Positions 46,680 through 47,987 of a stretch of 64,000 nt of DNA are shown one piece after another. Source of the DNA: an uncultured Opitutia bacterium (GTDB taxonomy: Bacteria > Verrucomicrobiota > Verrucomicrobiia > Opitutales > Opitutaceae). The DNA is taken from the NCBI GenBank assembly GCA_903877135.1, contig CAIRCN010000056.1:186001-250000 (forward strand), read 5' to 3'. The notes below the pieces were generated by a model, which did no database searches, was not told where the DNA came from, and saw only the letters and a program-made list of their open reading frames with translations. Position 1 is the stretch's first letter; the number at the start of each line of letters is the position of its first letter. Made by a program: the position numbers and the translations under genes.

Positions 46680-46861
46680 GGTGGACCCCATTGGCATCGA
46701 TACTGTTGTTAGCACTGCGGATCTGGGTTGTCTGCATCCGGAGTGCATTGGCTTCCCCCGATGATTCTGTCCCGACTCGTCTTGGCAGCCGCTCGGTTGG
46801 CGCAAAAACCGGATCGACAAGAACGGACGATTTTGTTCTCTTCCGCCCCGTTTTAAGCCAT
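46680..46861. other. region upstream of the ilv-type leader
   Basis: 182 bases between purC and the leader peptide start, with no gene. It must hold the promoter for the leader transcript; I see no hexamer pair good enough to call. Confidence 0.4.
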
Positions 46862-46936
46862 ATGGGCCTTCGCGCCATTATTCTAGTCGCGGTTATTATT
46901 CGCCCCAACTCAGGGTGGGGGCGCGTGGCAGTGTAA
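46862..46936 (+). CDS. ilv-type leader peptide (24 aa)
   Basis: ATG 46862, TAA 46934-46936. The peptide contains LRAIILVAVII, with nine Leu/Ile/Val in the first 13 residues, four of them Ile, then RPNSGWGR. This is the composition and layout of enterobacterial ilv leader peptides, where charged branched-chain tRNA levels set the ribosome position. Its position 69 bases before an ilvA gene, with overlapping RNA arms and a terminator in between, makes chance unlikely. Confidence 0.85.
   Translation: MGLRAIILVAVIIRPNSGWGRVAV
46871..46925 (+). promoter_or_regulatory. attenuator arms 1 and 2 (pause and antiterminator elements)
   Basis: CGCGCC (46871-46876) can pair with GGCGCG (46920-46925), an arm 1:2 stem. 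CTCAGGG at 46909-46915 is identical to the 3' arm of the terminator. It can therefore pair with CCCTGAG at 46969-46975 (terminator 5' arm), making an antiterminator. A ribosome stalled on the Leu/Ile/Val codons (to 46900) would break 1:2 and free arm 2. Confidence 0.7.
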
Positions 46937-46967
46937 ATTTCCCAACACAATTTCCACTCTATCCCCG

Positions 46968-47000
46968 GCCCTGAGCTTCACCGCTCAGGGCTTTTTGTTT
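46968..47000 (+). terminator. attenuator terminator in front of ilvA
   Basis: Perfect 9-bp stem GCCCTGAGC (46968-46976) / GCTCAGGGC (46983-46991), loop TTCACC, then TTTTTGTTT. It ends a few bases before the ilvA start codon (47006), the usual place for an attenuator. Confidence 0.9.
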
Positions 47001-47005
47001 TCCCC

Positions 47006-47987
47006 ATGAAAACCCACCAGCCCATCCTGAATCTCGACGATGTCCAAGCTGCGCGGCGGCGCCTCGCCGGCGGCCTCGGCCTGACGCCTTGCCGCATTGC
47101 GCCGGTGCTCTCGGAAATAGCCGGCGTCCGGATCTGGCTCAAGCGCGACGACCTCCAGCGCACCGGTTCGTTCAAGGAGCGAGGAGCGCGCCCGCGGTGT
47201 GGTCGCGGCTTCGGCGGGAAACCACGCGCTGGGGCTCGCCTACCATGGTGCGTCGCTCGGGGCAAAAATCACGGTTGTAATGCCCACGGGCGCAGCAGCC
47301 GTGAAAGTTGCCCGCTGCCGCAGTCTCGGCGCCACGGTCGTGCTGCACGGCGAAAACTTCGAGCAGGCATACGCCCACGCTGCCGGGCTCGCGGCCGAGT
47401 CTGGCGTGGCGCTCGTGCATCCGTTCGACGACCTGCGCGTTATCGCCGGCCATGGCACAATGGTGCTAGAGATCCTTGATCAGGCGCCCGAGTTGGACAC
47501 GTTGGTCGTGCCGGTCGGCGGTGGCGGCTTGCTAGCCGGCGTGGCGACCGTCGTCAAGTCACTCCGCCCAGATGTGCGCATCGTGACCGTCGAGCCGGAA
47601 CACGCCGCGGGGTTCCTTGCCGCGCAACGCCACGGGGCGCCGCGGGCGGTCACGGTTGGGCCGACGCTCGCCGACGGTCTGGCCGTCGTCCGCGTGGGTG
47701 ATATGACCTTTGCCGTCGCGGCGCCGTTGGTGGATGGCTGCGTGACTGTGAGCGAGGACAATTTGGCGGGCGCAATGAGCCTGCTGGCGCGGCGCGCCGG
47801 GATTGTGGCCGAGGGTGCCGGGGCGGCAGCGCTGGCTGCCGTGCTAGCCGGGAAAATCGCCGGCCGCGCCATCGTGCTACCAATCTGCGGACGCAATATC
47901 GACCTGCGGGTGCACGAACAGATCATCGCGCACAGGCGGGGTTGGGCCCTGGCCCCGCTCCGTGCCGCTGAACCGGCCGCAGCCTGA
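47006..47987 (+). pseudogene. ilvA: threonine ammonia-lyase IlvA, interrupted by a small out-of-frame deletion
   Basis: The first frame (47006 to ~47188) gives the N-terminus up to the PLP Lys motif GSFKERGA. The rest lies in another frame: EERARGVVAASAGNHALGLAYHG, VVPVGGGGLLAGVA, and so on to 47987. Compared with E. coli IlvA, about ten residues between RGA and the GVV..SAGNH segment are missing, so roughly 30 bases not divisible by three are lost. As written, translation stops at 47479. A GTG at 47199 opens the downstream frame but would lack the catalytic Lys. The downstream frame has no regulatory ACT domain, so it is a short-form enzyme. The cause may be real decay or a sequencing/assembly error. 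Confidence 0.85.

Follow-up and report, generated by a model that had tools for sequence, protein, structure and literature searches.

What does a short isoleucine-containing reading frame, followed by an intrinsic terminator, do in front of a lone threonine dehydratase gene (ilvA)? The question is raised by a 64,000-nt stretch of DNA (the window, i.e. the whole stretch that was analysed) from an uncultured Opitutia bacterium of the family Opitutaceae, where a sequence-only reading had proposed a complete ilv-type transcription attenuator. Ribosome-mediated attenuation of ilv genes is best known from Gammaproteobacteria, and the ilvL leader of Escherichia coli controls an operon that includes ilvA.

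Layout of the element and its putative promoter

The four-arm element spans positions 46862-47001 and comprises a leader of 24 codons, several of them for Ile, then a protector hairpin, a CTCAGGG antiterminator segment and a terminator of 9 bp that runs into a T-tract (Table 1). The leader, the terminator with its T-tract, CTCAGGG, CCCTGAG and the CGCGCC/GGCGCG pair all lie exactly where the sequence-only reading had placed them, and the folding it had suggested as a check gave a structure more stable than dinucleotide shuffles (z = -3.28). Over both strands of the 64 kb, this was the only site with an Ile/Leu/Val/Met-rich short ORF before a strong terminator, and the same unique site additionally carries the repeated 3' arm. 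The element is not a chance arrangement, being carried by intact orthologues of the gene in other genera of the family (see below).

Table 1. Positions of the element's parts, its putative promoter and the gene behind it, numbered from the first nucleotide of the window
Feature	Position	Strand	Basis or remark
-35-like promoter hexamer TCGACA	46814..46819	+	T(C/G)GACA conserved in relatives
Putative -10 region TTCTCT (weak)	46836..46841	+	16 nt 3' of the -35-like hexamer; TTCTCT/TTCTCC in several ilvA relatives
Leader peptide ORF	46862..46936	+	ATG 46862, stop TAA 46934-46936, MGLRAIILVAVIIRPNSGWGRVAV; frame and Ile-rich core kept in 75 elements
Arm 1 of protector hairpin (CGCGCC 46871-46876 and Ile codons)	46871..46887	+	MFE fold; own-versus-swapped arm pairing
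Leader Ile codons	46877-46882 and 46895-46900	+	Sequence
Arm 2 (CTCAGGG 46909-46915 and GGCGCG 46920-46925)	46909..46925	+	Alternative partners: arm 1 or arm 3
Inner antiterminator helix, 5' side (GTGG)	46925..46928	+	Fold with 5' part masked; co-evolution
Inner antiterminator helix, 3' side (CCAC)	46954..46957	+	Fold; paired changes in relatives
Intrinsic terminator stem-loop, arms 3 and 4	46968..46991	+	Sequence, terminator scan, alignment
Terminator arms GCCCTGAGC with GCTCAGGGC	46968-46976 with 46983-46991	+	CCCTGAG is 46969-46975
T-tract TTTTTGTTTT	46992..47001	+	Sequence; terminator also picked up by scan
ACT-less threonine dehydratase gene (ilvA), frameshifted	47006..47987	+	35-nt deletion at 47180/47181 versus sister genome; remainder in another frame, 47199-47987

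The scan that picked up the terminator found no consensus sigma-70 promoter. T(C/G)GACA occurs 26-56 nt 5' of the leader start in 66 out of 75 elements, where 0.9 would be expected from shuffles, and we infer that the element has a promoter to itself, with this hexamer as its -35 box and a poorly defined -10 region. The -35-like box thus reads T(C/G)GACA rather than TTGACA, and is strikingly constant over the family. The leader start codon apparently lies close to the 5' end of the transcript so placed; as no Shine-Dalgarno-like sequence precedes the leader, its translation is an assumption.

Distribution in the family and beyond

Intact orthologues of the ACT-less ilvA were found by protein search in eleven other genomes, including other genera, among 100 genomes of the family. 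All eleven have a terminator and an Ile-rich leader directly upstream, the form at locus L016 being more divergent, while the ACT-type ilvA genes compared had no such leader and terminator upstream. Of 252 genomes of the family, 127 gave matches to a covariance model (R1) built from eleven elements, and these represent 37 of its 49 genera; the weakest matches include other kinds of element. The better matches were fetched and the gene behind each was read. ACT-less ilvA follows 24 elements (the window included and L016 not counted, i.e. 23 others) and citramalate synthase, cimA, follows 51, the cimA elements being spread over many genera. In relatives, cimA was identified by its KIYDTTLRDGTQGEG start and a family search, the profile score being that of the window genome's copy only. 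The elements were gathered with a model built on ilvA, so that their likeness in sequence is partly selected, but their adjacency to these genes is not.

No genome among those read carries the element on both ilvA and cimA (P = 0.003 if the two were independent, relatedness being ignored). In four of the loci examined (L067, L071, L072, L080), the gene before the attenuator is thrC and the one after it cimA, a position within the thr operon. Since the attenuator brings a promoter-like hexamer of its own, cimA would there be uncoupled from the genes for threonine synthesis. An in-situ swap of cimA for ilvA behind one attenuator was considered and rejected, as the flanking genes differ; one neighbor alone is shared by an ilvA locus and cimA loci, and it seems to be an SDR-type gene of a widespread sort rather than a sign of synteny. 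The attenuator proposed for the window is not an isolated case: judged by the genes that follow the elements, it would be a regulator used throughout the family, on ilvA and cimA and in a few instances on other genes.

A broader model (R2) was used to search the order and the phylum. Within the order its matches are almost confined to this family, with a few genomes elsewhere in the phylum, and a model match in G302 (another family of the order) looks like chance. Three of those elsewhere in the phylum, from another family of the class (G702, G705, G729), have clear Ile-rich leaders and terminators before an ilvA of ~430-440 codons, and in G697 a valine/isoleucine-rich leader is found upstream of an acetolactate synthase gene. 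In sampled genomes of the order's other families, no Ile-rich leader with a clear terminator was found upstream of cimA. At L182, one Ile-containing ORF precedes cimA, without a clear terminator.

Other leaders were also seen. Two loci of the same family have histidine leaders and terminators before an apparent hisG, namely MVLNHHHHHSS in L176 (1170-1299, minus strand) and MIRNHHHHHAS in L177 (782-913), and these appear to represent classical his attenuation. Leaders rich in Thr, Ile, Met and Lys, e.g. TATTTIMMTKA, occur in L149, L153, L157 and L158 (one genus of the family) and in L178, followed by a terminator and a protein of ~120-130 aa, of which a fragment had no Pfam match; they are possibly sensors of aspartate-family amino acids. 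In L081, L082, L152 and L161, Ile-containing leaders and terminators precede a lone protein of ~90-110 aa with a weak resemblance to the small subunit of acetolactate synthase, which is an ACT-domain protein. A conserved Thr/Ile-rich leader, MRRTTINFVTIAIGVNGRF, with a GC-rich terminator was found in L155, L159 and L164, and at L088 the leader ATTTIIISPIPG, with Thr and Ile codons as in thr attenuators, lies before a long-type ilvA. Another family of the phylum (L215) has a Val/Ile-rich leader, SVAVVIIIAVIIIIGSSGVA, and a terminator upstream of the gene for the large subunit of acetolactate synthase.

Folding and co-evolution of the arms

Folding the full RNA of twelve ilvA elements yielded the terminator, and with the first 33 nt masked and the 3' terminator arm left out, the leader in these twelve paired with the 5' arm of the terminator. 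In the MFE fold, the protector (1:2) hairpin contains the regulatory codons; the antiterminator overlaps the 5' arm of the terminator, and the two are mutually exclusive. The alternative antiterminator that had been proposed for the window, 46909-46915 with CCCTGAG, is among the structures seen in the masked folds.

Co-evolution was assessed over 75 elements by comparing duplex energies of an element's own arms with those of swapped arms. Own arms paired better than swapped arms in every helix (the z values ignore shared ancestry and are hence too high): -15.4 versus -12.8 kcal/mol for the outer helix of the antiterminator (z 8.0), -14.3 versus -11.5 for its inner helix (z 9.4), -20.8 versus -16.7 for the terminator (z 10.6) and -23.1 versus -20.0 for the protector (z 8.8, and 5.9 for the ilvA elements). 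Duplex energies took the place of column-by-column counts of antiterminator pairs, since from one subtype to the other the register of pairing is displaced by one base. The outer helix covaries between subtypes but hardly within them (z 0.2 in the CTCAGGG subtype and 1.8 in the cimA elements), while the inner helix covaries also inside subtypes (z 5.9 in the CTCAGGG subtype, and 6.1), with pairs in relatives such as GTGACTG/CAGTCAC, ATGG/CCAT and CGCGG/CCGCG. Between subtypes, the leader segment and both terminator arms switch together, from CTCAGGG / CCCTGAG / CTCAGGG to CCCGGGC / CCCCGGGC / GCCCGGGG. In an alignment of 34 sequences (A2), 95.0% of the terminator cells were paired, with 20 double changes versus 5.6 in shuffles. 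By these comparisons all four arms co-evolve, and the conservation of leader and arms upstream of ilvA in relatives, which the sequence-only reading had named as its check, was found together with compensatory changes.

Proposed mechanism and alternative readings

We consider it very likely that the element is a ribosome-mediated transcription attenuator responding to isoleucyl-tRNA. The mechanism had been suggested from the window, and the leader frame and four arms kept in relatives with compensatory changes argue for it. What the sequences show is which parts are present, that they are conserved and that the arms co-evolve; from this we infer the stalling, the termination and the amino acid sensed. 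Transcription would start just upstream of the leader, at the T(C/G)GACA-type promoter. With isoleucyl-tRNA scarce, the ribosome would stall at the Ile codons of arm 1, leaving arm 2 (CTCAGGG...) free to pair with arm 3 (CCCTGAG), so that no terminator forms and the downstream gene for a 2-oxobutyrate-forming enzyme would be transcribed. When isoleucine is plentiful, the ribosome would reach the stop codon within the antiterminator region, or the pairing of arm 1 to arm 2 would be restored, and the terminator would form from arms 3 and 4. The features of this general kind of system, i.e. codons of the end product in the leader, a terminator between leader and gene and a pathway gene downstream, are present, the last of them in relatives (in the window the ilvA is frameshifted); in these relatives the attenuator is with high probability functional.

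Terminator/antiterminator switching as such would also fit a riboswitch or T-box, i.e. an RNA that binds a metabolite or tRNA and in which the ORF is incidental. This we regard as the least probable reading: upstream of the switch there is only the leader ORF with its conserved in-frame Ile codons, and a search of the window against Rfam gave no match at gathering thresholds; relaxing the limit to E up to 5 brought up nothing but weak matches to sRNAs, whose scores fell far short of gathering. With no relevant Rfam match, a riboswitch or T-box identity was rejected. Scarcely more probable is that the short ORF encodes a functional micropeptide while the terminator merely closes an upstream transcript. 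In favor of this are the hydrophobic character of the peptide and a C-terminus, SGRRRVAV, that one subtype conserves, but between subtypes the C-terminus is wholly different and tracks the sequence of the RNA arms. The co-evolution of those arms, the enzyme for entry into isoleucine synthesis after the terminator in 75 loci, and the end of purC ~290 nt before the window terminator also speak against a micropeptide.

A further reading, compatible with attenuation, concerns the window copy itself. Control of the lone ilvA had been proposed there; the gene is indeed adjacent, but it has lost 35 nt and its reading frame, which the sequence-only reading overlooked. Compared with the same-genus genome G021, the deletion takes out a conserved stretch just 3' of the SFKERGA motif and shifts the frame, and we take the gene as probably a pseudogene, or else, the genome being a draft, as an assembly flaw. 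The deletion is flanked by short repeats containing GGAGCG. Given the frameshift, the element probably controls nothing useful in this genome, which also has a full ACT-type ilvA elsewhere (G000:C16) and a cimA (TIGR00977, 683 bits versus a curated cut-off of 450) that is the last gene of an operon reading serA-hom-lysC-thrC-cimA, the first four names being assigned by eye from translations. We somewhat favor the view that the window copy has decayed, i.e. that the attenuator works in relatives and is without function here since its ilvA is broken. The position of the frameshifting deletion and a leader with two Ile codons fewer than that of the sister (four versus six) point this way, whereas the leader frame and all arms are intact in the window and an assembly error is possible in a draft genome. 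Unless the deletion is such an error, the element is probably the remnant of a once useful switch.

Leader codons and the amino acid probably sensed

Most gaps in the leaders of the 75 elements are multiples of three. Isoleucine makes up 17.8% of leader residues in ilvA elements and 22.9% in cimA elements, its codons being nearly all ATT and ATC. Threonine dehydratase (ilvA) and citramalate synthase (cimA) are non-homologous enzymes on two routes to 2-oxobutyrate. The placement of the element on these two alternative enzymes, together with the Ile-dominated leader codons, makes isoleucine the most likely signal for the attenuator, in place of the branched-chain amino acids as a group.

Methionine is second to isoleucine in the 24 ilvA leaders, which have 41 internal Met codons, nearly all in the Ile core and in both subtypes, e.g. 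ARAMIIGMIII and AAMIMIR. In cimA leaders, Met codons are mostly found in the C-terminal GEMA/GDMA motif, and the cimA leaders of the RPGHG subtype, near-identical to the ilvA ones, have none in the Ile core. As this contrast persists within the same subtype, drift from ATT to ATG alone explains the Met codons poorly. Methionine and threonine share homoserine as a precursor, on which ilvA draws and cimA does not. The Met codons, their absence from the RPGHG cimA cores and the shared homoserine would fit ilvA leaders that respond to isoleucine and methionine together (the window form also to valine and leucine). We hold this to be rather doubtful, as there is no simple physiological reason to raise ilvA under methionine scarcity and the core lacks Met in the leaders of the window and L010 (same genus) and of L014. 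Just as doubtful is the wider reading in which the family uses one attenuator type interchangeably on ilvA or cimA, whichever is the regulated entry into isoleucine synthesis, with the threonine-consuming version also reading methionine by way of in-frame Met codons (a dual Ile/Met attenuator).

Relation to known systems

Each structural feature that can be read from sequence supports the view that the isoleucine attenuator acts by a known mechanism, that of the classical attenuators of ilv, thr and his genes. In Escherichia coli and its relatives, the attenuators of ilvGMEDA (ilvL) and thr (thrL) likewise combine protector, antiterminator and terminator arms with a leader ORF in which Ile codons occur next to codons for Val/Leu or Thr. 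Here, however, a single gene rather than an operon would be controlled, the leader is centered on Ile with Met, the element is also found on cimA, and the lineage is another one. As in thr operon attenuation, leader translation would control the threonine-isoleucine branch, although in several relatives the attenuator comes after thrC, just before cimA, and would separate the two. A search of three leader peptides of 24-28 aa against NCBIfam gave no match at E up to 0.1, such very short queries limiting sensitivity, and the leader was thus not recognized as the gammaproteobacterial IlvL family.

Leader peptides and attenuators of ilvB have been described in Actinobacteria, e.g. for ilvBNC of Corynebacterium (PMC1262725, PMC10272879, PMC11857589). 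These also combine candidate leader peptides and terminators before branched-chain amino acid genes, but sit before acetolactate synthase (ilvB), and the text of the Actinobacteria survey nowhere mentions ilvA or cimA. A 2010 study stated that, as far as its authors knew, leader peptide systems had until then been described in Proteobacteria and Actinobacteria alone, apart from the Firmicutes case which they added (PMC2965389). In the open-access literature we found no report of attenuators in this lineage, nor of any on cimA; a 2010 survey by Lopatovskaya and colleagues (doi 10.1134/S0026893310010164, cited in PMC4833913) could overlap.

Leader-peptide attenuation of isoleucine synthesis would hereby be extended to a large bacterial family and to citramalate synthase, a single type of control being shared by two enzymes that are unrelated yet serve the same step. 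The roughly 75 natural variants with co-evolving arms offer material for a comparative test of the mechanism, and the Met codons, as a possible second signal, pose a testable question. Most worth following are the control shared by ilvA and cimA, and the Met codons of the ilvA leaders.
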